Assembly (NCBI RefSeq): GCF_000017505.1
Contig: NC_009675.1
Location: 1,984,001-2,048,000 of the forward strand
DNA from: Anaeromyxobacter sp. Fw109-5
GTDB lineage: Bacteria; Myxococcota; Myxococcia; Myxococcales; Anaeromyxobacteraceae
Direction of reading: 5' to 3'
Length of the DNA stretch: 64,000 nucleotides
In this document: piece by piece, positions 45,322 through 57,855 of the stretch
Layout: each line of letters starts with the position of its first letter
Position numbering within the stretch: position 1 is the stretch's first letter
Notes under the pieces: model-generated
Databases searched by the model: none
Told to the model about the DNA's origin: nothing
What the model saw: only the letters and a program-made list of their open reading frames with translations
Made by a program: the position numbers and the translations under genes

Positions 45322-47076
45322 ATGTCGAGGGCCGCAGGGAACCCGGCCGAGAGCGCGCCCCGAGACGGCGAGCGCGGGCCCGCGCAGCGTCCCGACCGAG
45401 GCGAGGAGACGCGCGCGCTCGAGCGGCTCGCCCGGGCCATCGCCCCTCGGTCGCTCGGGGACCTCGGCCTCGAGATCCCCTGGTACCAGCGGCTCTCCAC
45501 CAAGCTCTTCGTGATGATCGGCTTCGTCGCGCTGGGCGTGATCGCCGCGTTCTTCTTCGCCGAGGTCGCGGTGCAGCGCCACCTGCTCTCGCAGGTCGTC
45601 GCCGAGTCCGACCTCCTCAGCCACACCATCCGCAACTCGCTCCACCGCGCGATGCTCCAGGACCGCCGCGGCGACGCCTACCTCATCATGCAGGACATCG
45701 GCGGCCAGCCCGGGATCGAGAAGGTCCGCATGATGGACGCGGAGGGCCTCATCACCTACTCGACCGAGCGGGGGGAGATCGGGCGCACCGTGGACCGGAA
45801 CGCGGAGGCCTGCTCCGGCTGTCACGCCGCCGGCGAGCCGCTCCACCACGTCGACCTGCAGGACCGGAGCCGCGTCTTCCCCACGAACGGGCACCGCGTC
45901 CTCGGGATCATCACCCCCATCTACAACGAGGCCTCCTGCGCGAACGCGGCCTGCCACGCCCACCCGGCGCAGCGGAAGGTCCTCGGGGTCCTCGACGTGG
46001 CCGTCTCGCTCAGGCGCCTCGACGCGGAGACCGCCGGGTTCCGCTGGCGCACGCTCGCGGCGGCGGCGGCGGCGGCGGCGCTGCTCGGCAGCTTCGCCTG
46101 GCTGTACACGCGGCACCACCTGGTCCGACCGGTCGCCGCGCTCGTCCAGGCCACGCGACGGGTGGCGCGCGATCAGCTCGAGCTCGAGATCCCGGTCACC
46201 TGGAAGGGCGAGCTCGGCCTGCTCGGCGCGTCCTTCAACGACATGACGCGCTCGCTCCGCAAGGCGAAGGGCGACCTCGACTCCCTCATGCACGGGCTCG
46301 AGCGCGAGGTGCAGGAGCGGACCGCCGCGCTGCGCGCGGCCCAGGACCAGCTCGTCCGCAACGAGAAGCTCTCGTCCCTCGGCAAGCTCTCCGCCTCCAT
46401 CGCCCACGAGATCAACAACCCGCTCGCCGGCATCCTCACCTTCGCGAAGCTCATCGTGCGGACCCTCGAGCAGGGCGTGCCGGACGAGGCGACGCGGGCG
46501 GCCCTCATCAAGCACCTCCACCTCGTCCAGCGGGAGACGGAGCGCTGCACCGCCATCGTGCGGAACCTGCTCGACTTCGCCCGCGAGCGGCCGCTCGCGG
46601 TGAAGGACGTGGACGTGAACGAGGTGGTGGAGGAGGCGGTCCTCCTCCTCGCCAACCAGATCCGGATCCAGGGCGTCACGCTCGACAAGCGGCTCGGCGC
46701 GATCCCGGTGGTCTCCGCCGACTTCGGGCAGCTCCGTCAGGCCTGCGTCAACGTCATCATGAACGCCATCGAGGCGATGGGGCGCGGCGGGCGGCTCGAG
46801 ATCGAGAGCGCGCTCGTGGACGGCGGCCGCTGGGTGGAGGTCGCGTTCAAGGACACCGGCCCCGGCATCGCGCCGGAGCACCTCACGAAGATCTTCGACC
46901 CGTTCTTCACCACGAAGGAGCGCGGCACGGGCCTCGGGCTGTCGGTCGTGTACGGCATCGTCGAGCGCCACGGAGGGAAGGTCGACCTGACGAGCGAGGT
47001 GGGGAAGGGGACGCGCATCGCGTTCCGGATCCCGCCGCGCCCCTGGGCAGAGGCGCCGTCGGAGGTGAGGGGATGA
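45322..47076 (+). CDS. Histidine kinase with c-type heme motifs in its periplasmic sensor
   Basis: A 584-residue membrane sensor. Helices at about 62-81 and 243-263 enclose a periplasmic domain that contains CSGCH (C164, C167, H168) and CANAACH (C206, C211, H212), a standard and a CX4CH heme c site. A HAMP-like segment (268-315), a coiled coil, HisKA with H362 in AHEINNP, and an HATPase domain (N-box CVNVIMNAIEAM, DTGPGIAPEH, GTGLGLSVVYG) follow. Heme-bearing periplasmic sensors read redox state, O2 or NO in other bacteria. The partner is very likely the NtrC-type regulator at 47666, with the archaemetzincin gene between them. Confidence 0.92.
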   Translation: MSRAAGNPAESAPRDGERGPAQRPDRGEETRALERLARAIAPRSLGDLGLEIPWYQRLSTKLFVMIGFVALGVIAAFFFAEVAVQRHLLSQVVAESDLLSHTIRNSLHRAMLQDRRGDAYLIMQDIGGQPGIEKVRMMDAEGLITYSTERGEIGRTVDRNAEACSGCHAAGEPLHHVDLQDRSRVFPTNGHRVLGIITPIYNEASCANAACHAHPAQRKVLGVLDVAVSLRRLDAETAGFRWRTLAAAAAAAALLGSFAWLYTRHHLVRPVAALVQATRRVARDQLELEIPVTWKGELGLLGASFNDMTRSLRKAKGDLDSLMHGLEREVQERTAALRAAQDQLVRNEKLSSLGKLSASIAHEINNPLAGILTFAKLIVRTLEQGVPDEATRAALIKHLHLVQRETERCTAIVRNLLDFARERPLAVKDVDVNEVVEEAVLLLANQIRIQGVTLDKRLGAIPVVSADFGQLRQACVNVIMNAIEAMGRGGRLEIESALVDGGRWVEVAFKDTGPGIAPEHLTKIFDPFFTTKERGTGLGLSVVYGIVERHGGKVDLTSEVGKGTRIAFRIPPRPWAEAPSEVRG

Positions 47077-47130: not shown

Positions 47131-47661
47131 ATGTCATCGATCTTCGTCTGGTGGATCGGTGAGGAGGAGGTCGATCACGAGCTGATGGAGCACGTGCGCC
47201 TCCACCTCGCCGCCGCGTTCGGCCGCCCCGTCTTCCTCTGGGACTCCCCGGAGCGGCCGCGCCACGCCTACGACGAGAAGCGGAAGCAGTACCGGACGAC
47301 CCCGATCCTGGGCTGGCTCGGCGAGGCCGGGCCCGGCGCGGGGAAGGTGCTCGGCGTCACCGACGCGGATCTGTTCATCCCCATCCTCACCTACGTGTTC
47401 GGGGAGGCCCAGCTGGGCGGCGGGGCCGCGGTGGTCTCGCTGAAGCGCCTCCTGGATCCCGCCGGAGGCCGCGCGCAGCTCGTGGAGCGGCTCGCGAAGG
47501 AGGCGGTGCACGAGGTGGGGCACGCGTTCGGGCTCGTGCACTGCGGCCACGAGCACTGCGTCATGTCGCGCTCGCCGGCCGTGCGCGAGGTGGACGCCAA
47601 GGGCGTCGACCTCTGCGGCGAGTGCCGGGGACACCTCGAAGAGCTCGCTGGAGGAGCGTGA
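47131..47661 (+). CDS. amzA: Archaemetzincin-type zinc protease
   Basis: A 176-residue metzincin. The archaemetzincin signature is complete: HEVGHAFGLVHC (H127, E128, H131, H137, C138), then C143 in EHCVM with the Met-turn M145, and C162-x-x-C165, which forms the structural zinc site. Archaemetzincins are found in archaea, some bacteria and vertebrates; their substrates are unknown. The gene sits 54 bp after a histidine kinase and 4 bp before the response regulator, an unusual insertion in a two-component operon that suggests a linked function such as proteolytic signal control. Confidence 0.9.
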   Translation: MSSIFVWWIGEEEVDHELMEHVRLHLAAAFGRPVFLWDSPERPRHAYDEKRKQYRTTPILGWLGEAGPGAGKVLGVTDADLFIPILTYVFGEAQLGGGAAVVSLKRLLDPAGGRAQLVERLAKEAVHEVGHAFGLVHCGHEHCVMSRSPAVREVDAKGVDLCGECRGHLEELAGGA

Positions 47662-47665
47662 AGCC

Positions 47666-49066
<1,401 letters not shown>

Positions 49067-49164: not shown

Positions 49165-50970
49165 GTGAGAGACGCCTCCGAGATGGCTCCGGGCGAGCCC
49201 CCGCTCGCCGCCGGCGACCGCGCCGGAACACCTGGCTCGCCCGCGCTCGCCCGCGTCGCGCGCGCGCACGGTCCCGCGCTCGGGGCGGCCCTCGCCGGCG
49301 TGGTCTGGCTGGCGTTGCAGGTGGGGCTCGACGCCGTCGATCCGAGGAACGTCGGCTGGCTCATGCACGGCGACTGGGCCGCCAACCACCTCGGCTGGCT
49401 GTTCTTCCGGTCGGCGCCGTTCTCGCTGCCGCTGGGCGCCAACCCGCTGTACCCGTACCCCGTCGGCTCGACGCTCGGCTTCACCGACTCGATCCCCCTG
49501 GTGGCGATCGCGCTGCGTCCCGTCGCGTCCGTGCTTCCGCAGGACTTCCAGTACGTCGGGGCCTGGCTCCTCGCAGCGTTCGCGCTGCAGGGCTTCGTCG
49601 GCGCGAAGCTCGTGAAGCTCGCGACCCCGAACGCCGCGGCGCAGGCGCTCGGTGGCGCCCTGTTCGCGCTCGCGCCGCCGCTGCTCCATCGCCTCGTCGG
49701 GCCGCTGACCGGCCACGCGAGCCTGTGCGCCCACTGGATCGTGCTCGTCGCGCTGTGGCTCGCCCTCGCGCCCGTGGACCCCGCGCGGATCCGTGCCCGC
49801 CTGCTGGCCGCGCTCCTGCTCGTCGGGGGTGCGGCAGGTGTGCACCCGTACTTCGTGGTGATGACCGCCGCGCTCGCGGCCGCGCTGGTCGTCCGGCTCG
49901 CGGCCGTCGAGCGGCGTGGCGTCGCGCTTCTCGCGGGCGGCCTCGCCGCCGCCGCGCTGGCGGCCGGCGCCGGGCTCGCCCTCTTCGGCTTCGTCGGCAA
50001 CGGCGTCCGGTCCAAGGCCGAGGGCTTCGGCTACTTCTCCTCCGACCTCGCCACCCTCGTGAACCCGATGGGCTGGTCGCGCGCCCTCGCGAGCCTTCCG
50101 GTTCGGGCCGGTCAGTACGAGGGGTTCGGATATCTGGGGGGCGGGGTCCTGCTGCTGGCGGCCACGGCGATCGTCCTCGCCCTCGTCCCGCGCGGCGCCC
50201 GGCCCTCGACCGGCGCCTTCGCGCGCGCGGCGCCGGTCGCCGCCGTGGCGGTGCTCCTGTTCGCGTTCGCCCTCTCCGACGCGATCTCCTGGGGCGGCGA
50301 GCGGATCGCGAAGGTCGGGCTGTACGCGCTCGTCCCCGCGCTCGGGGGCACGTTCCGGTCGTCGGGCCGGTTCGTCTGGCCGGTGCACTACGTCGTGCTC
50401 CTCGGCGCGATCGCGCTGCTCGCGGCGGCGCTGCGGTCGCGGCCCCGGGTCCTCGTCGCCGTCCTCGCGATCGCGCTCGGGGTGCAGGCGGCGGACGTGG
50501 CGCCTCCGGTCCCCGTCCGGCTGGGTGCGGAGCCGTGGCGACCGCCCGGCTCGGACGTCTGGGGGCTCGCGCGCGGCGCTTACCGGCACCTCGCGATGTA
50601 TCCGCCCTACCTCATCGCGGGCGGGGAGCCGGTGGCGGAGCAGCCGGACGGGTGCGGGCCGCCGATCTGGCCGTGGGACGCGCAGGTCGGCCTCGCGCAC
50701 GTCGCCTACCGGCTCGGGGCCACCTTCAACGGATCGTACGCCGCGCGGCTAGACCCCGAGCGCGCGGCCTCCTCCTGTCAGGAGCTGTACGGCGCGGTGG
50801 CCCGGGGGCAGCTCGACGGCGCGACGATCTACGTCGTGCATGCGCAGGCCCTCGCGCCGTTCCGCCGCGCCGGCGCGAGCTGCGGGGTCGTGGACGGCGC
50901 GCCGGTGTGCGTGAGCGGCGAGCGCAACGACCCGTTCGCGCAGGCGGTCCGGCTGAGCCCGCTTCCCTGA
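49165..50970 (+). CDS. DUF6311-like multi-spanning membrane protein
   Basis: A 601-residue integral membrane protein from a GTG start (an ATG at 49183 is also possible). It has about ten helices across residues 35-430 and a C-terminal soluble domain (about 450-601) with several Cys. The periplasmic-type motif WLMHGDWAANHLGW near residues 65-78 and NPLYPYPVGSTLGFTDS near 93-109 are characteristic of the DUF6311 group, which resembles GT-C glycosyltransferases of the GT39/GT83 type. Transfer of a lipid-linked sugar is possible but unproven. It lies 98 bp after the NtrC-type regulator, probably as a separate unit. Confidence 0.7.
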   Translation: MRDASEMAPGEPPLAAGDRAGTPGSPALARVARAHGPALGAALAGVVWLALQVGLDAVDPRNVGWLMHGDWAANHLGWLFFRSAPFSLPLGANPLYPYPVGSTLGFTDSIPLVAIALRPVASVLPQDFQYVGAWLLAAFALQGFVGAKLVKLATPNAAAQALGGALFALAPPLLHRLVGPLTGHASLCAHWIVLVALWLALAPVDPARIRARLLAALLLVGGAAGVHPYFVVMTAALAAALVVRLAAVERRGVALLAGGLAAAALAAGAGLALFGFVGNGVRSKAEGFGYFSSDLATLVNPMGWSRALASLPVRAGQYEGFGYLGGGVLLLAATAIVLALVPRGARPSTGAFARAAPVAAVAVLLFAFALSDAISWGGERIAKVGLYALVPALGGTFRSSGRFVWPVHYVVLLGAIALLAAALRSRPRVLVAVLAIALGVQAADVAPPVPVRLGAEPWRPPGSDVWGLARGAYRHLAMYPPYLIAGGEPVAEQPDGCGPPIWPWDAQVGLAHVAYRLGATFNGSYAARLDPERAASSCQELYGAVARGQLDGATIYVVHAQALAPFRRAGASCGVVDGAPVCVSGERNDPFAQAVRLSPLP

Positions 50971-51383
50971 GGGACCGATCCGCGCAGCGGCGCGGCGGAC
51001 GGTCGCGCGCGTCCGGGGCTCTTCATCAGGGGATTGCATCCCGGCGCGCCCTGCGCCGTCGCTGCGAAGTGGCCCCTTCCCGAGCGGCGTTGAATCCCTC
51101 CACGCCCGTGGAGTAACTCCTCAGCAGGGCGCGAATCGCACGTAACCGTGCGTGATCGCGGAGGGCGCCACCTTCGCCCCGGCGCGGGGTCGTAGAGCTT
51201 CTCGACGCTCGCCGGCGTCCCGCGAGGGCGCGGCGTCGCGGCGCGGTCGCGCGCCGGCTCCATAACCCACCGTAAACAGCGCCGTTCCGCGCCGCGCGTG
51301 CGCTCGCCTCCACGATGGCCCGTCGCGTGCTCTTGCGAGGAGTCGAGAAGAGCCACCACCCCGCAGGCCCAAAGGAGCTCGCC
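50971..51383. other. Intergenic and promoter region of the HybA/HybB module
   Basis: This 413-bp stretch holds no convincing gene. It contains a palindrome TCCACGCCCGTGGA (51099-51112) and an inverted repeat CGCACG-TAAC-CGTGCG (51137-51152). Lower-GC sequence around 51260-51285 (CATAACCCACCGTAAACAG) is a possible promoter core before the 24-codon gene at 51384. Confidence 0.5.
51137..51152. promoter_or_regulatory. Inverted repeat CGCACG-N4-CGTGCG, possible operator
   Basis: Perfect 6-bp arms around TAAC, extended on both sides by imperfect GCGA/TCGC symmetry. It lies about 230 bp upstream of the start of the HybA/HybB module. Confidence 0.35.
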
Positions 51384-51483: not shown

Positions 51484-52371
51484 ATGAGCATCGGACGCAG
51501 AGAGTTCATCAAGATCGCCGCAGTGACGGCAGGGGCCGCGGGCGCCGGTTCGGCGTCGGCGGCCACGCCGCACGCAGAGGGGACGGACGGGCCGGGCGTG
51601 CTCGTCGACACGACCCTCTGCGTCGGCTGCCGCGCCTGCGAGGCCGCGTGCGCCGAGAAGAACGAGCTCCCGACGCCGCCCGAGAGCGACGACGTGATGC
51701 TGCAGCGGCGGGACACCGCGCCGCAGGTCTTCACCGTCGTGAACCGCGCCGAGAAGGACGACGGCACGGTCCGCTTCGCCAAGAAGCAGTGCATGCACTG
51801 CCTCGCCCCCGGGTGCGCCTCGGCGTGCCCGGTCCGCGCGATGGACAAGTCGCCGGAGGGCCCGGTGGTGTACGACCCGTCGAAGTGCATGGGCTGCCGC
51901 TACTGCATGGTCGCGTGCCCCTTCGACGTGCCGAAGTACGAGTACGACAGCTGGAAGCCGCGCGTGCGGAAGTGCTCGTTCTGCGCGGACCGCCAGGCGA
52001 AGGGCCTGAAGCCCGCGTGCACCGAGGTCTGCCCCTCCGGCGCGCTGACCTTCGGCCGCCGCTCCGAGCTGCTCGAGCTCGCGAAGACCCGCATCTACAC
52101 GAACCCCGGCAAGTACGTGCCGCACGTCTACGGCGAGCACGAGGCCGGTGGCACGAGCTGGCTCTACATCACCGACCTCGACCTCGAGAAGCTCGCGTTC
52201 CGCGCCGACGTGCCGGAGAAGGACATCCCCAGCCACGTCTCCGGCGCGCTGAGCGCCCCGCCGTTCGTGATGACCCTGTGGCCCCCGCTCTTGATGGGGC
52301 TCTACGTGTTCTCGCGGCGCAAGAACGGGGCCGAGGGCGAGGAGCACGGGAAGGAGGACCACCATGGCTAG
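51484..52371 (+). CDS. HybA-like Tat-exported 4x[4Fe-4S] ferredoxin subunit
   Basis: A 295-residue periplasmic electron-transfer protein. The Tat signal is GRREFIK at residues 4-10. Sixteen Cys form four cluster sites: C46/49/52/56, C103/106/111/115, C135/138/141/145 and C164/167/179/183. A C-terminal helix (about 250-266, WPPLLMGLYVF) anchors it to the membrane, as in HybA of hydrogenase 2. No hydrogenase subunits are in the window, so the clusters probably connect the HybB-like quinone protein with cytochromes encoded downstream. It overlaps the next gene by 8 bp. Confidence 0.92.
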   Translation: MSIGRREFIKIAAVTAGAAGAGSASAATPHAEGTDGPGVLVDTTLCVGCRACEAACAEKNELPTPPESDDVMLQRRDTAPQVFTVVNRAEKDDGTVRFAKKQCMHCLAPGCASACPVRAMDKSPEGPVVYDPSKCMGCRYCMVACPFDVPKYEYDSWKPRVRKCSFCADRQAKGLKPACTEVCPSGALTFGRRSELLELAKTRIYTNPGKYVPHVYGEHEAGGTSWLYITDLDLEKLAFRADVPEKDIPSHVSGALSAPPFVMTLWPPLLMGLYVFSRRKNGAEGEEHGKEDHHG

Positions 52372-53590
52372 CGTCCAGGCCGGCGCCGTCACCGCCCAGC
52401 AGTCGTTCGTCCGCGAGAAGATCCTGCTCGGCATGGGGTGGCGCGAGTACGCCCGCTCCTGCTGCACCAAGGGGAACGCCATCGCCGCGGCGATCCTCGT
52501 GGTCGGCTTGCCGATCTTCGTCTACCGCTTCATCGCCGGGCTCGGCGCCACCACGGCCCTCTCCCAGACCGCCCCCTGGGGCCTGTGGATCGGGTTCGAC
52601 ATGATGACCGGCATCGCGCTCGCCGCGGGCGGGTTCACCATCGGCGCGACCGTCCAGATCTTCGGCCTCGAGGAGTACCACCCCATCGAGCGGCCGGCGA
52701 TCCTCACGGCGTTCCTCGGCTACGTGATGGCGGTGATCGGGCTGCTCGCCGACCTCGGCCGCCCCTGGAACATCGTGATGGCGATGTTCAACTTCGGCAC
52801 CGCCTCGGCGCTGTTCGAGGTCGCCTGGTGCGTCATGTGCTACACGACCGTGCTCCTGCTGGAGTTCACGGTCCCGGCCTTCGAGTGGCTCGGCTGGAGG
52901 AAGCTCCACGCGGTGATGCGCAAGGCGCTCATCGGGCTCACGGTCCTGTCCGTGATGTTCTCGACCATGCACCAGAGCGCGCTCGGCTCGCTGTTCCTGC
53001 TCGCGCCGACGAAGCTCCATCCGCTCTGGTACACGCCCTTCATCTTCGTCTTCTTCTTCATCTCCGCGATCATCGCGGGCATCTCGATGGTCATCGTCGA
53101 GTCGATGCTGTCGCACCGCGCGTTCCACTCGCAGGTCGCGGGCAACCACGTCGACATGGACAAGCTGACGCTCGGGCTCGGGAAGGCGGGGGCGCTCGTC
53201 ATGTTCGCCTACTTCTTCCTGAAGCTGCAGGGGGTCATCGACGGGCACGCCTGGGGCTACCTGCCCACCGCCTACGGCGCGCTCTTCCTGGTCGAGACGG
53301 TCGGGTTCGTGCTCGTGCCGGCGTTCCTCTTCGCCTACGGCGCCCGCAACGCCAAGGTGAAGCTGGTCCGCGCGGCCGGCGTGATGGGGGTCCTCGGGGT
53401 CATCCTGAACCGCCTCAACGTCTCGATCGTCGCCTTCAACTGGAACCAGCCGGTCCGCTACGTGCCGAGCGCGAGCGAGGTGATCGTCTCGATCACCCTC
53501 GTCACCATCGGCGTGCTGGCGTTCCGGTGGATCGTGAACCGCATGCCCATCCTCCGCGAAGACCCACGCTTCGCGGCCGGGCATCACTGA
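52364..53590 (+). CDS. HybB/NrfD-family quinone-interacting membrane subunit
   Basis: A 408-residue integral membrane protein with about ten helices. Motifs typical of HybB are present: WGLWIGFDMMTGIALAAGG near residues 71-89, GRPWNIV near 125, STMHQSALGSLF near 205 and a final helix before NRMPILREDP. HybB-type proteins exchange electrons with the (mena)quinone pool without bound heme and dock on a HybA-type Fe-S subunit. The gene overlaps hybA-like by 8 bp and is followed 11 bp later by the GcvH-like gene. Confidence 0.92.
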   Translation: MASVQAGAVTAQQSFVREKILLGMGWREYARSCCTKGNAIAAAILVVGLPIFVYRFIAGLGATTALSQTAPWGLWIGFDMMTGIALAAGGFTIGATVQIFGLEEYHPIERPAILTAFLGYVMAVIGLLADLGRPWNIVMAMFNFGTASALFEVAWCVMCYTTVLLLEFTVPAFEWLGWRKLHAVMRKALIGLTVLSVMFSTMHQSALGSLFLLAPTKLHPLWYTPFIFVFFFISAIIAGISMVIVESMLSHRAFHSQVAGNHVDMDKLTLGLGKAGALVMFAYFFLKLQGVIDGHAWGYLPTAYGALFLVETVGFVLVPAFLFAYGARNAKVKLVRAAGVMGVLGVILNRLNVSIVAFNWNQPVRYVPSASEVIVSITLVTIGVLAFRWIVNRMPILREDPRFAAGHH

Positions 53591-53601
53591 GGGAGGACGT
53601 C

Positions 53602-54333
53602 ATGGCCCATGACTTCCTGAGCATCTACCCCGCCAAGCTCCTCGAGTACGCCCTCGCAGTCGGCTACCTGCTCCTCTTCATCCCCTTCTGGCGCTACGTC
53701 CAGGGCGGGCGGTTGAAGGAGGCCACCGTCCGCGTCGCCGCGCCGCGCCCCGTCGCGCGCGCCGCCGCCGCGGTCGCCGCCGGCGCCCGGGCGCTGCGGC
53801 CCACCGCCGGGTGGTTCCAGCTGCCCGCCGGCGTCCACCTGCACCCGGGGCACACCTGGGCGCGGCTCGAGGACGACGGCCTCGTCGCGGTGGGCGTGGA
53901 CGACTTCGCCCACAAGCTCGTCGGTCCGGCGCGCGTGGAGCTCCCCGCCGTCGGCGCGATCGTCGCGCAGGGCGAGCCCGCCCTGGCGATGGGCGACCAG
54001 GCGCGCACGGTCCCGCTCCTCTCCCCGATCGACGGCACCGTGGTCGCCGTGAACGCCAAGATCCGGGACGGCAAGGAGCCCCTCGAGGATCCGTACGGCG
54101 CCGGCTGGCTGTTCAAGGTGAAGGCGCCCCGCCTCGCCGCGAACCTCCGCCAGCTCCTGACGGACGGTCCCGCGCGGCACTTCGTGGAGGACGCCGGCGA
54201 GCGGCTCGCGCTCCGGATGAGCCCCGAGCTCGCCCACGTCCTGCAGGACGGCGGCGCGCCCATCCACGGCATCGCCCACGCCCTCGCCGGCGACGACTGG
54301 GAGCGGCTCGCCCGCGAGCACTTCCTCACCTAG
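53602..54333 (+). CDS. Membrane-anchored GcvH-like protein lacking the lipoyl lysine (copy 1)
   Basis: A 243-residue protein: an N-terminal membrane helix (about 14-32), an Ala/Arg linker, a GcvH-fold domain (about 71-165) and a helical C-terminus. The fold is clear: HPGHTW (81-86), VGVDDFAHKLVG, ELPAVG, SPIDGTVVAVN and GAGWLFKV. In lipoylated GcvH the lysine sits in ESVKA; here the aligned residues are GDQAR and position 134 is Ala, so it cannot be lipoylated there. GGGAGGA precedes the ATG. It lies between the HybB-like and triheme cytochrome genes, so a structural or docking role in the electron-transfer complex is more likely than glycine cleavage. Confidence 0.82.
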   Translation: MAHDFLSIYPAKLLEYALAVGYLLLFIPFWRYVQGGRLKEATVRVAAPRPVARAAAAVAAGARALRPTAGWFQLPAGVHLHPGHTWARLEDDGLVAVGVDDFAHKLVGPARVELPAVGAIVAQGEPALAMGDQARTVPLLSPIDGTVVAVNAKIRDGKEPLEDPYGAGWLFKVKAPRLAANLRQLLTDGPARHFVEDAGERLALRMSPELAHVLQDGGAPIHGIAHALAGDDWERLAREHFLT

Positions 54334-54347
54334 GCACGGAGACCGCC

Positions 54348-54689
54348 ATGACGACGACGAAGCTCATGAGGATCGGCGCGGTGGTCGGGGCGCTCCTCGC
54401 CGGCGGTGCGCTGGCCGGTGACCTGCCGAGGCTGCCGCAGGCGCTGCCCCTGCCGCAGGGGGCGGAGAGCCCGGGGGAGGTGACCTTCCGGCACGACAGT
54501 CACGTCGACTCGGCGAAGCCGGCGTGCGCGAGCTGCCACCCGAGGCTGTTCAGCATCCTCGGCCGCTCGGCCGAGCGCCGCGACCGCGTGGTGAAGCACG
54601 CGGCGATGGAGAAGGGGGAGAGCTGTGGCGCGTGCCACGGGAAGCAGGCGTTCGGGTTCGACGACTGCACCATGTGCCACGCGCAGTGA
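54348..54689 (+). CDS. Triheme c7-type cytochrome
   Basis: A 113-residue periplasmic cytochrome. A signal peptide covers about residues 1-24. Three heme c sites follow: CASCH, CGACH and CTMCH, plus the FRHDSHV block that gives distal His ligands, as in class III/c7 cytochromes. It could pass electrons between the HybA-like Fe-S protein and other carriers. Spacing is 14 bp from the preceding gene, so co-transcription is likely. A GC hairpin follows at 54706-54736. Confidence 0.9.
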   Translation: MTTTKLMRIGAVVGALLAGGALAGDLPRLPQALPLPQGAESPGEVTFRHDSHVDSAKPACASCHPRLFSILGRSAERRDRVVKHAAMEKGESCGACHGKQAFGFDDCTMCHAQ

Positions 54690-54705
54690 GTGGGGTGGGA
54701 CCTCG

Positions 54706-54736
54706 CCCGCCCCGTCCGCGCGAGCGGCGGGGCGGG
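54706..54736. terminator. GC stem-loop after the triheme cytochrome gene
   Basis: CCCGCCCCG (54706-54714) and CGGGGCGGG (54728-54736) form a perfect 9-bp stem with a 13-base loop. No T-run follows, so it may attenuate, protect the upstream mRNA end or be neutral. Confidence 0.4.
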
Positions 54737-54836
54737 TGGGGGTGGTGGCAGGACCGCTCGCGCCGAGGCGGTCGGAGCACGGGCGGGTCACGGGCGCGGC
54801 ACGCAGGGCGCGCCCGGGAGAGCGAGGAGGGAAGCC

Positions 54837-55538
54837 ATGTCCGCGGTGATCGAGGTCCTCCAGTCGGCCGGCGTGTTCCTCGGAGGCATCCTGGCGCGGT
54901 TCGGCGTGTTCCTCGCCATGATCGCGCTCTTCGCCGTCCCCGCGCTCGCGCTGGCGCTCGCGATGCGCGCCGTCGAGCGGCGACGCGAGCGGCGGCTCGG
55001 GCTGCACAGCGTAGGCGGCGTCCTCTTCCGTCCCGGGCTCGTCTACGCCCCCGGTCACACCTGGCTGCAGCCGCGGATCGGCGGCGCCCTGGAGCTGGGG
55101 GTGGACGACCTGGCCAATCGGCTCCTCCCGGCCGTGTCCGCGGTCGAGCTGCCGCGCGCCGGGACGCAGGTCGCCCGCGGCGAGACCATCGCCACGATCT
55201 CCGGAGGTGGCCGCGAGGTGCGCGTCCGGGCACCCGTACCCGGAATCATCGCCGCCGTGAACGCGGCGGTCGTGCGGGATCCCGGGCTGGTGAAGCGCGA
55301 AGGGTACGGCCGCGGATGGCTCGTCGCGATCTCGCCGGCAGACGGGTCGTGGGCGTCGCTCCCGCACGGAGAATCGGCGGAGAGCTGGATGCGGCGAGAG
55401 GCCACGCGCTGGAATCGCTTCCTCGAGGACCAGCTCGGCTTCGCCGCGGCCGACGGTGGCGAGCTCGTGGCACCTGCGCCCTGGCTGATCGGAGACGCGG
55501 GGTGGCGCGCGCTGGCGGCGGCGTTCCTCACGGTGTGA
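54837..55538 (+). CDS. Membrane-anchored GcvH-like protein lacking the lipoyl lysine (copy 2)
   Basis: A 233-residue paralogue of the protein at 53602 with the same layout: membrane helix (about 21-44), basic stretch, GcvH-like domain (about 65-165) and helical tail. Conserved points are APGHTW (71-76), LGVDDLANRL, ELPRAG, RAPVPGIIAAVN and GRGWLVAI. At the lipoyl position the sequence is SGGGREV with Gly125, so the lysine is again missing. GAGGAGGGAA precedes the ATG. Two independent losses of the same residue in one operon indicate a function that does not need lipoate. Confidence 0.8.
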   Translation: MSAVIEVLQSAGVFLGGILARFGVFLAMIALFAVPALALALAMRAVERRRERRLGLHSVGGVLFRPGLVYAPGHTWLQPRIGGALELGVDDLANRLLPAVSAVELPRAGTQVARGETIATISGGGREVRVRAPVPGIIAAVNAAVVRDPGLVKREGYGRGWLVAISPADGSWASLPHGESAESWMRREATRWNRFLEDQLGFAAADGGELVAPAPWLIGDAGWRALAAAFLTV

Positions 55539-56074: not shown

Positions 56075-57115
56075 ATGAAGAGATTTCTACTGCCGCTCCT
56101 CGTCGCGGTCGCCGCATCCCCGGCCTGGGCCGGGATCCCGGCGGAGTCCGAGGACTGTCTCGGCTGCCACAGCGACCCGGATCAGACGTACGACCTACCG
56201 AGCGGCGAGAAGCTGTCGCTCTACGTGAACCAGGAGGTGTTCGCCAAGTCGGTGCACGGCGAGATGCTCCGGTGCACGGAATGTCACACCGACAAGACGA
56301 GCGACCACGCGACCGGCGAGCTCAAGTTCAAGACCCGCCGGGAGGTGACCCGCGCGTATTACGAGCAGTGCAAGGGCTGCCACTTCGCGAACTACACGAA
56401 GACGCTCGACGGCGTTCACTTCGCGGTGATGGCGAAGGGCAACGACAAGGCCGCGCTCTGCGTCGACTGCCACGGGGCGCACGACATCTCCCGCCCCGGC
56501 CAGCCGCGCGCGCGCATCTCGAAGATGTGCTCCGGCTGCCACGCCTCCGAGGCGGACGTCTACGCGAAGAGCGTGCACGGCCGCGCGGCGGAGGGGAGCT
56601 CGGACGTGCCGGTGTGCACCGACTGCCACCGCGCGCACGACACCACCGACCCGCGCGACGGGGCGCTCGCGATGCGCACCCCCGAGATCTGCGGGCGCTG
56701 CCACACCGACGAGAAGCTCATGAAGAAGTACGGGCTCTCGACCAAGGTCGTGGACACCTACCTCGCCGACTTCCACGGCATGGCCGCGACGCTCCAGCAG
56801 GGCCAGAAGAAGGGCCCGGGCGTCCGCCTCGCCGCCGTCTGCACCGACTGCCACGGGGTGCACGACATCGAGAAGGCCGACAACCCGAACTCCGCCGTGA
56901 TGTCGTCGAACCTCCAGAAGACCTGCGCGAAGTGCCACGAGGGCGCGAGCGAGAGCTTCCCGAAGGCGTGGCTCTCGCACTACGAGCCGACTCCGGAGAA
57001 GGCGCCGATCGTCTGGGGCGTGATGCTCTTCTACAAGCTGATGATCCCGTTCATGGTGGGCGGGCTCGTGCTGCAGATCGCGCTGCACCTCTGGCGCGTC
57101 GTGGTGAATCGATGA
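56075..57115 (+). CDS. Nine-heme cytochrome c with C-terminal membrane anchor
   Basis: A 346-residue periplasmic cytochrome. Signal peptide 1-19 (AWA cleavage). Nine CxxCH sites start at C28, C67, C99, C129, C152, C181, C206, C256 and C284, several followed by HGAH or HRAHD motifs that could give distal ligands. A membrane helix at about 313-340 anchors the C-terminus. The stop overlaps the cytochrome b start (ATGA). Nine c hemes beside a b-type quinone domain is the content of Geobacter CbcL, where both are on one chain. Here they are two genes. Confidence 0.93.
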   Translation: MKRFLLPLLVAVAASPAWAGIPAESEDCLGCHSDPDQTYDLPSGEKLSLYVNQEVFAKSVHGEMLRCTECHTDKTSDHATGELKFKTRREVTRAYYEQCKGCHFANYTKTLDGVHFAVMAKGNDKAALCVDCHGAHDISRPGQPRARISKMCSGCHASEADVYAKSVHGRAAEGSSDVPVCTDCHRAHDTTDPRDGALAMRTPEICGRCHTDEKLMKKYGLSTKVVDTYLADFHGMAATLQQGQKKGPGVRLAAVCTDCHGVHDIEKADNPNSAVMSSNLQKTCAKCHEGASESFPKAWLSHYEPTPEKAPIVWGVMLFYKLMIPFMVGGLVLQIALHLWRVVVNR

Positions 57116-57855
57116 GCAACTACATCGTCCGTTTCAGCCTCAAGCAGCGGATCGAGCACTTCGTCACGATGACGACGTTCGCGGCCCTCTGCCTCACGGG
57201 GCTGCCGCAGAAGTTCTACACGACGGGGTGGGCGCACTCCTTCGTCGGCTTCTTCGGCGGCATCGACAACACCCGCTGGATCCACCGCTGGTTCGGGATC
57301 CTGCTCGCCATCTCCACGGTGGTGCACTTCGCGAGCGGGATCGCCGCGATCCTCTCGCGCAAGATCGGCTTCTCGATGGTCCCGACGAAGAAGGACTTCG
57401 AGGACGCCATCCAGCAGCTCCGGTACTACCTGGGCATGACGAACGAGCATCCCCAGTACGATCGCTTCACCTACAAGGAGAAGTTCGAGTACTGGGGCCT
57501 CGTCGCCGGCAACGTGATCATGGTCGTCACCGGGTTCATGCTCTTCTTCCCGGTGAAGGCCGCCATGCTGATCCCGGGCGAGATCATCCCCGCCGCCAAG
57601 GTGGCCCACTCCAACGAAGGGCTGATGGCGTTCTTCGTCATCACCATCTGGCACATCTTCAACGCGCACCTGAACCCGGACGTCTTCCCGTTCGACGCGT
57701 CCATCTTCACCGGCAAGGTCAGCCGTGAGCGCTACCTGCACGAGCACCCGCTCGAGCTGGCGCGCCTCGAGGGCGGGCTGCCGCCGGACGCGCACGGCCA
57801 CTCCGCGCACGGGCACGCGTCCCCCGGCCACGGTGGAAAGCGCGACGTGGGCTGA
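57112..57855 (+). CDS. Di-heme-type cytochrome b (HydC/FdnI-like)
   Basis: A 247-residue membrane protein with four helices (about 18-34, 60-80, 128-147 and 170-188) and candidate heme b ligands H16, H58, H72, H166 and H181. FGFxMVPTKKDFEDAIQQLRYYLG between helices 2 and 3 is typical of the cytochrome b subunits that pair with formate dehydrogenase, hydrogenase or CbcL. The last 20 residues are rich in His and Gly (HGHSAHGHASPGH). Quinol oxidation or quinone reduction coupled to the nine-heme cytochrome is the likely role. Confidence 0.88.
   Translation: MSNYIVRFSLKQRIEHFVTMTTFAALCLTGLPQKFYTTGWAHSFVGFFGGIDNTRWIHRWFGILLAISTVVHFASGIAAILSRKIGFSMVPTKKDFEDAIQQLRYYLGMTNEHPQYDRFTYKEKFEYWGLVAGNVIMVVTGFMLFFPVKAAMLIPGEIIPAAKVAHSNEGLMAFFVITIWHIFNAHLNPDVFPFDASIFTGKVSRERYLHEHPLELARLEGGLPPDAHGHSAHGHASPGHGGKRDVG

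Follow-up and report, generated by a model that had tools for sequence, protein, structure and literature searches.

Lysine-less GcvH-like proteins of Anaeromyxobacter sp. Fw109-5 belong to a widespread cassette with HmcBC-type redox proteins, a two-component system and an archaemetzincin

A 64,000-nucleotide stretch of the genome of Anaeromyxobacter sp. Fw109-5 (NC_009675.1, positions 1,984,001 to 2,048,000; hereafter the window) carries two neighbouring genes whose products, here called A and B, have the fold of the glycine cleavage H protein (GcvH) but lack the lysine to which lipoate is attached. They form part of a gene cassette that also encodes an HmcB-like iron-sulphur protein, an HmcC-like quinone-interacting membrane protein, a histidine kinase, a sigma-54-dependent response regulator and an archaemetzincin protease. 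The cassette is widespread and apparently undescribed: the individual families are all known, and the combination appears to be new. The chances seem to us about even that A and B are cytoplasmic, cofactor-free adaptor subunits that tie the HmcBC redox module to two-component signalling. An initial annotation of the window, made from the sequence alone, had inferred that the GcvH fold was reused in A and B for a role that does not need lipoate. This inference is supported but understated, as the conserved cassette and the fusion of the same domain to receivers are the larger point.

GcvH-like proteins without a lipoyl lysine

The features that define A and B are listed here, numbered from the first nucleotide of the window.

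53602..54333, forward strand: GcvH-like protein A, 243 amino acids, ATG at 53602; helix at about residues 5-34, linker, GcvH domain at about residues 74-186, C-terminal extension at residues 187-243
54001..54003, forward strand: codon for Ala134 of A, which aligns with the lipoyl lysine of H protein (position derived by counting from the ATG)
54837..55538, forward strand: GcvH-like protein B, 233 amino acids, ATG at 54837; membrane helix, GcvH domain, C-terminal extension (ADGGELV...)
55209..55211, forward strand: codon for Gly125 of B, which aligns with the lipoyl lysine (position derived in the same way)

The two open reading frames (ORFs) are found on the same strand at the coordinates given in the initial annotation, its observation of two GcvH paralogues in one operon is confirmed, and the motifs it had listed as retained can all be read directly in the proteins (GHTW, DDFA or DDLA, LPAVG or LPRAG, SPIDG or APVPG, and GWL). 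Both belong to the GCV_H fold family, with Pfam matches of 61.7 bits for A and 61.8 bits for B at a cut-off of 22.2. Neither qualifies as a true GcvH by the NCBIfam model TIGR00527 (61.4 and 49.8 bits, respectively, versus a cut-off of 115.85), and both also score under the cut-off of NF002270. The claim that the lipoyl lysine is absent is borne out by phmmer alignments with solved H proteins and a recheck of the residues, which place Ala134 of A and Gly125 of B at its position. The next residue is arginine in both proteins, and neither contains a cysteine. The ratio of nonsynonymous to synonymous substitution rates (0.34-0.44 for A and 0.13-0.43 for B, from five related loci each) indicates purifying selection.

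A was modelled with AlphaFold2 using 82 relatives; the mean predicted local distance difference test score is 84, and most of the GcvH domain exceeds 90. Residue 134 is located in a hairpin turn, because strands 126-131 and 136-141 lie on either side of it. The top Foldseek match of the model is a Thermus H protein (E 6e-13), and comparison with lipoylated E. coli H protein gives a TM-score of 0.89 by target length and a root-mean-square deviation (rmsd) of 1.8. With VIA-align the model matches the H protein 1htp with a Z score of 18.2 over 128 residues (rmsd 1.7), and 3ab9 with a Z score of 17.0. Extra helices are formed by residues 188-210, 224-227 and 230-241, and the structural match stops near residue 200.

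The N-terminal membrane helix that had been proposed for both proteins is clear in B and borderline by hydropathy in A (best 19-residue values of 2.65 and 1.61, respectively), where the model has a helix from residue 5 to 41, with residues 11-30 at high confidence. Among 65 relatives of A, conservation averages 3.16 bits per column over the first 34 residues, 2.46 over the GcvH domain and 1.5 over the linker, and Lys12, Glu15 and Tyr16, all present in A, are invariant. Because the helix is better conserved than the GcvH domain, this pattern suggests that the A-type helix is not a mere anchor but has a specific membrane partner, for which HmcC is the obvious candidate. The 90 residues preceding the domain were examined in 147 GcvH-like ORFs from loci that carry HmcC relatives, and 127 of them have a hydrophobic stretch. 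Lysine and arginine are more numerous after this stretch than before it in 102 of the 127, equal in 13 and fewer in 12; the counts before and after the stretch are 0 and 6 for A and 1 and 7 for B. As the excess of positive residues follows the helix, the GcvH-like domain is predicted to be cytoplasmic.

The lipoyl lysine is missing in nearly all of the family. Among 151 domain sequences from the HmcC loci and the window (152 with the reference), the aligned lipoyl column holds lysine in two (L077 and L132), both as G-K-R, so the rule that proteins with a membrane helix lack the lysine has two exceptions at this column. The carrier position itself is most often glycine (101 of 152, reference included), and the following position is lysine in 103 and arginine in 24 of the 151. 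In a wider table of 270 rows, in which a few places are double-counted, 231 rows have the C-terminal extension and no lysine at the site, and 20 have the lysine and no extension. All 20 of the latter carry E-[SA]-x-K and are canonical GcvH proteins from this and other genomes. Five rows have both extension and lysine, none of them as E-[SA]-x-K, and 14 have neither. In a FastTree phylogeny of 260 rows, all 19 of the canonical proteins and one other (L185) are set apart from the rest with a support of 0.985. The lysine-less family is therefore marked by the lack of E-[SA]-x-K at the hairpin, by a C-terminal extension with DGG and Trp, and by a clade of its own; this division supports, at the level of sequence, reuse of the GcvH fold without lipoate. 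The additional protein that groups with canonical GcvH (L185:321-722, genome G203, reached through L153) is a short H protein with arginine at the lipoyl-lysine site (ESARN).

Compared with GcvH, A and B share the fold and the motifs H-x-W, V-N and G-W but have a membrane helix and the C-terminal extension with its DGG and Trp motifs, and no glycine cleavage genes reside in their operon. The LbpA proteins of sHdr sulphur oxidation likewise have a GcvH-like fold outside glycine cleavage and are tied to a redox system. In the part of the LbpA literature consulted (PMC6067878), their lysine is described as strictly conserved, as are two cysteines except in some archaeal members. A and B have neither the lysine nor the cysteines and are membrane-tethered, and none of the seven operon proteins scanned is Hdr-like. 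Assignment of A and B as lipoylated GcvH or LbpA is ruled out by the missing lysine, the separate clade and the missing cysteines.

Four near-full-length GCV_H places exist in the genome itself, corresponding to canonical GcvH (C1:2923202, which keeps the lipoyl lysine), A, B and a third, B-like copy, along with two shorter matches. The third copy is also lysine-less (G000:C1:5018925-5019464; L071:7405-8097); it lacks the other genes of the window operon and adjoins what looks, by eye, like a gene for an acyl-CoA dehydrogenase, as is similarly the case in a congener (L072).

A conserved cassette around HmcC

An alignment of HmcC alone was scanned against 84,980 species genomes, and for the best 80 of at least 582 relatives the lysine-less domain was sought with its own profile (alignment A1). 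It is present in 74 of these 80 loci. In three of the six others (L124, L142 and L153), merely 183-1262 bases follow HmcC. The 74 loci, nearly all from metagenome bins, include representatives of Bacteroidota, Chlorobiota, Ignavibacteria, Acidobacteria, Gemmatimonadota, Deltaproteobacteria, Krumholzibacteriia, Lentisphaerae and Planctomycetota. The usual order is GcvH-like, HmcB, HmcC, GcvH-like, CxxCH-containing histidine kinase, sigma-54 regulator and archaemetzincin, and the window holds all of these. Where the available sequence leaves room, a GcvH-like gene is found directly downstream of HmcC in 64 of 72 loci, upstream of HmcB in 55 of 63, and on both sides in 49 of 57. Kinase, regulator and archaemetzincin occur together in 37 of the 43 loci with 6.5 kb downstream, and all 37 have a GcvH-like gene. 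No shared substrate gene was found beside the cassette in eight long loci read by eye. The remaining genes of the region in the window are as follows.

45322..47076, forward strand: histidine kinase with CxxCH (c-heme-like) in the predicted sensor region, HAMP, HisKA and HATPase_c (Pfam)
47131..47661, forward strand: archaemetzincin (Peptidase M54), zinc motif HEVGHAFGLVHCGHEHCVM intact (NCBIfam NF033823, 160.5 bits, cut-off 145)
47666..49066, forward strand: sigma-54-dependent response regulator, REC-AAA+-Fis (Pfam)
49165..50970, forward strand: 601-amino-acid membrane-like protein between the regulator and HmcB (no NCBIfam match)
51484..52371, forward strand: HmcB/HybA-like Fe-S protein with a twin-arginine-like leader (RREFIK, by reading; NF045715, 338 bits, below the cut-off of 420; Fer4_11)
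52364..53590, forward strand: HmcC/HybB/NrfD-like quinone-interacting membrane protein (NF045714, 462 bits, below the cut-off of 550; PF03916)
54348..54689, forward strand: c(7)-type triheme cytochrome between A and B (TIGR04257, 71 bits, cut-off 40)
56075..57115, forward strand: multiheme cytochrome c with a C-terminal hydrophobic stretch (Pfam Paired_CXXCH_1 and others)
57112..57855, forward strand: cytochrome b561/formate dehydrogenase gamma-like membrane protein (PF01292)

The HmcB and HmcC proteins of the window are homologous to the named families but fall under the NCBIfam equivalog cut-offs. The cassette resembles the Hmc/Hyb-type NrfD complexes (HmcBC, HybAB and QrcCD) in its adjacent HmcB and HmcC homologues and differs from them in having no recognised molybdo- or hydrogenase subunit. 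A GcvH-like subunit does not appear in the consulted portion of a review of NrfD-like complexes (PMC8076601), where the words 'glycine' and 'lipoyl' have 0 occurrences. The archaemetzincin passes its family cut-off and has the HExxHxxGxxHC4CxM motif, and the zinc motif matches strictly in 46 of 50 relatives. What sets it apart within peptidase M54 is its conserved genomic partner; the biological importance of these proteases is called little known in the part of PMC3427221 consulted. Among the homologous kinases that adjoin HmcC relatives, 58 of 61 have CxxCH in the sensor region. The kinase and regulator resemble NtrC-type two-component systems, to which the cassette adds a redox module, GcvH-like domains and an archaemetzincin. 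The 601-amino-acid protein stands outside the conserved cassette elsewhere, being labelled at the same place only in L037 among the fetched relatives. A sigma-54 promoter upstream of the operon was considered as a regulatory link and rejected, since pattern matches in the window (6) are fewer than expected (11.1); the match at 51316 is not significant.

Among 193 Myxococcota genomes, close relatives of A occur chiefly in the taxonomic family of this strain, and many of the fetched A loci also hold HmcB-HmcC, the c7 cytochrome and B, with kinase, archaemetzincin and regulator upstream. In G060, a distantly related genome of this class, locus L067 reads GcvH-like, HmcB, HmcC, GcvH-like, GcvH-like, kinase, regulator and archaemetzincin.

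To control for the bias that arises because the HmcC seed comes from a genome with the arrangement, we surveyed 148 genomes from the phylum of a Syntrophaceae bin (the Desulfobacterota group). At E<=1e-80 there are 51 HmcC-type matches in 41 of these genomes, nine of them above the classical cut-off. A GcvH-like gene resides within 6 kb of 17 of the 51 but of only one of the nine classical proteins, where it is on the opposite strand, and therefore the GcvH-like partner marks a subfamily of HmcBC. In one locus (L161, G248:C4:88000-107000), a kinase, a regulator and, on the opposite strand, two GcvH-like genes lie a few kb upstream of an HmcC above the classical cut-off. Archaemetzincin gives 68 matches in 54 of the 148 genomes, and 37 of the 68 have a GcvH-like gene within 6 kb, where chance alone would give about 0.48 in genomes of 3.1 Mb. 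Conversely, 57 of 88 GcvH-like matches are within 6 kb of an archaemetzincin. Within 10 kb, 26 of the 88 are near archaemetzincin but not HmcC and four show the reverse, so the tie of the GcvH-like domain to archaemetzincin is wider than its tie to HmcBC. Archaemetzincin and regulator were found in 11 of 20 fetched places, which were chosen as strong GcvH-like matches lying mostly away from HmcC; ten of the 11 also have the kinase, and the eleventh is cut by its contig. In the phylum of a Bacteroidia bin, 21 of 148 genomes have a GcvH-like match at E<=1e-32.

Fusions of the GcvH-like domain to receivers and other domains

GcvH-like ORFs in 167 fetched sequences were sorted crudely by architecture, using stop-to-stop frames that may include residues before the true start. 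The classes comprise 131 ORFs with a transmembrane segment and the domain (TM-GcvH), 39 with a long PstS-like part (PstS-like-TM-GcvH), 12 canonical proteins, 39 of other types, and 39 with a cysteine motif (plus four that also have a hydrophobic stretch), a count that rests on a loose ad hoc pattern. Among the 39 'other' ORFs are A-type relatives from Anaeromyxobacter; their helix can be aligned to the one in A but scores just under the cut. In addition, 19 ORFs in ten of the 167 sequences join the domain to a receiver (REC), ten as REC-GcvH and nine as TM-REC-GcvH. HmcB or HmcC is labelled in eight of the nine loci that hold a REC-GcvH/TM-REC-GcvH pair, and Pfam confirmed receiver and GCV_H domains in all five fusion proteins submitted.

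Five loci from the Bacteroidota phylum (L191, L192, L195, L197 and L200) carry, besides HmcB and/or HmcC, a kinase, REC-GcvH, TM-REC-GcvH and what by eye is a cytochrome-like protein rich in cysteine, and a separate sigma-54 regulator was not seen in the parts of these stretches displayed. The only receivers seen beside the kinase in these five genomes thus sit on GcvH-like domains, and this is the strongest hint that the domain may be the endpoint of a phospho-signal.

The N-terminal domain that precedes the helix and GcvH domain in Bacteroidota has no Pfam match. In a model of one such protein (L078), the N-terminal part matches the phosphate-binding protein 4jwo (Z 22.8, 260 residues, rmsd 4.3) and the C-terminal part matches H protein 1htp (Z 19.3). 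The domain orders PstS-TM-GcvH and TM-REC-GcvH both fit a cytoplasmic GcvH domain, because a binding domain belongs outside the cell and a receiver inside.

Other fusions were also observed. Two 605-amino-acid proteins (L063:5398-7212 and L065:5423-7237) have a cysteine-rich N-terminus and a lysine-less GcvH-like domain, the former with kinase, sigma-54 regulator and archaemetzincin genes nearby. The domain is fused to an iron-sulphur subunit in L066:5482-6768, L068:5897-7288 (HoxU/NuoG-like by NCBIfam) and L069:2697-3989, and the fusions of L066 and L069 adjoin NuoE/NuoF-like genes by eye. Four tandem GcvH-like ORFs in G210 (L157:7156-10214) are followed by a flavoprotein resembling, by eye, sulphide:quinone reductases. 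A protein of about 988 amino acids in G248 (L162:4136-7099) carries the domain at its end and adjoins a kinase and a regulator; frames of similar length exist in G284 and G343.

Proposed role and alternatives

We know of no system type in which the parts of this cassette occur together. In PubMed Central, where subscription papers and preprints fall mostly outside scope and a description elsewhere is possible, we found no paper on the cassette, none pairing GcvH with NrfD, and none joining archaemetzincin, histidine kinase and response regulator.

On the adaptor reading, HmcB and HmcC would link quinone pool and periplasm by electron exchange. The GcvH-like proteins would be positioned next to HmcC, A through its conserved transmembrane helix, in a physical complex that displays a rigid GcvH-fold domain without lipoate on the cytoplasmic face. 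The domain would then serve as an adaptor from this complex to phospho-signalling by the co-encoded kinase, whose CxxCH may bind heme, and its receiver. In the window this receiver would be the separate sigma-54 regulator, and in some other bacteria it would be one joined to the GcvH-like domain itself. A probable role of the archaemetzincin is the trimming or turnover of a component in the cytoplasm, the simplest candidate being a GcvH-like protein. A more specific form of this mechanism, which we offer tentatively and consider somewhat unlikely as a whole, is a phosphorylation-controlled redox device. In this form a heme-reading kinase would act directly on the GcvH-fold subunits of quinone-linked HmcBC through the fused or separate receiver, switching electron flow or redox sensing post-translationally, and archaemetzincin would reset the system by cutting the GcvH-like subunit.

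Several observations weigh against the adaptor reading. The 80 HmcC loci are those nearest to one seed whose genome has the arrangement, the structure models are of single chains only, and none of the sigma-54 pattern matches in the window rises above chance. Near 22 of the 88 GcvH-like matches in the Desulfobacterota group there is neither HmcC nor archaemetzincin within 10 kb, and therefore the domain has other uses. Stand-alone paralogues exist at C1:5018925 in this genome, and A, or A and B, stand alone in several congeners. The kinase and regulator may act on transcription alone, leaving the GcvH-like protein as a plain structural subunit, and it is possible that HmcBC is catalytic-respiratory together with the neighbouring c7, multiheme and b-type cytochromes.

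The alternative that survives best, although we judge it unlikely, is that the GcvH-like domain caps, stabilises or helps insert HmcC as a structural or assembly subunit, with kinase, regulator and protease controlling expression only. Such a role would agree with the immediate proximity of HmcC, the highly conserved membrane helix and the cytochrome genes that adjoin in the window. However, the domain also turns up alongside kinase, regulator and archaemetzincin where HmcBC is missing (the 26 of 88 matches noted above), it is fused to receivers elsewhere, and most classical HmcC proteins do without it.

By analogy with PDK, a GHKL-fold kinase that docks on the inner lipoyl domain of pyruvate dehydrogenase E2, the GcvH-like domain might bind and tune the histidine kinase and have no role as an HmcBC subunit. 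The kinase is indeed common to loci with and without HmcBC, and PDK-bound lipoyl domains are among the structural neighbours, albeit at a low Z score of 5.4 that may reflect only the common fold. We consider this rather improbable, as it leaves unexplained the strong conservation of the helix in the type directly after HmcC.

It is far less probable that the family is still a carrier with a shifted register, either bearing a group on the basic residue beside the lipoyl position or lipoylated in those relatives that have lysine there. The frequent lysine at the next position and the two lysines in the aligned column could be cited in its favour, but arginine replaces the former in 24 sequences including both window proteins, glycine is commonest at the carrier position, the E-[SA]-x-K context is lacking, and A and B have no cysteine. 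That these are decaying, functionless GcvH paralogues, as loss of the lysine might imply, is scarcely credible and can be dismissed given the purifying selection, the distinct clade, and the extension and gene linkage conserved across phyla.

Genes matching 'glycine cleavage system H' models in many environmental bacteria, among them metal reducers, syntrophs and Bacteroidota, apparently encode proteins that are neither lipoylated nor involved in glycine cleavage, so that counting them in metabolic reconstructions would give wrong results. The cassette makes both the role of lysine-less H-protein folds and the targets of archaemetzincin accessible to experiment. If the phosphorylation-controlled device proved true, it would give the H-protein fold a lipoate-independent job, provide a physiological context for bacterial archaemetzincins, and add a new type of receiver output.

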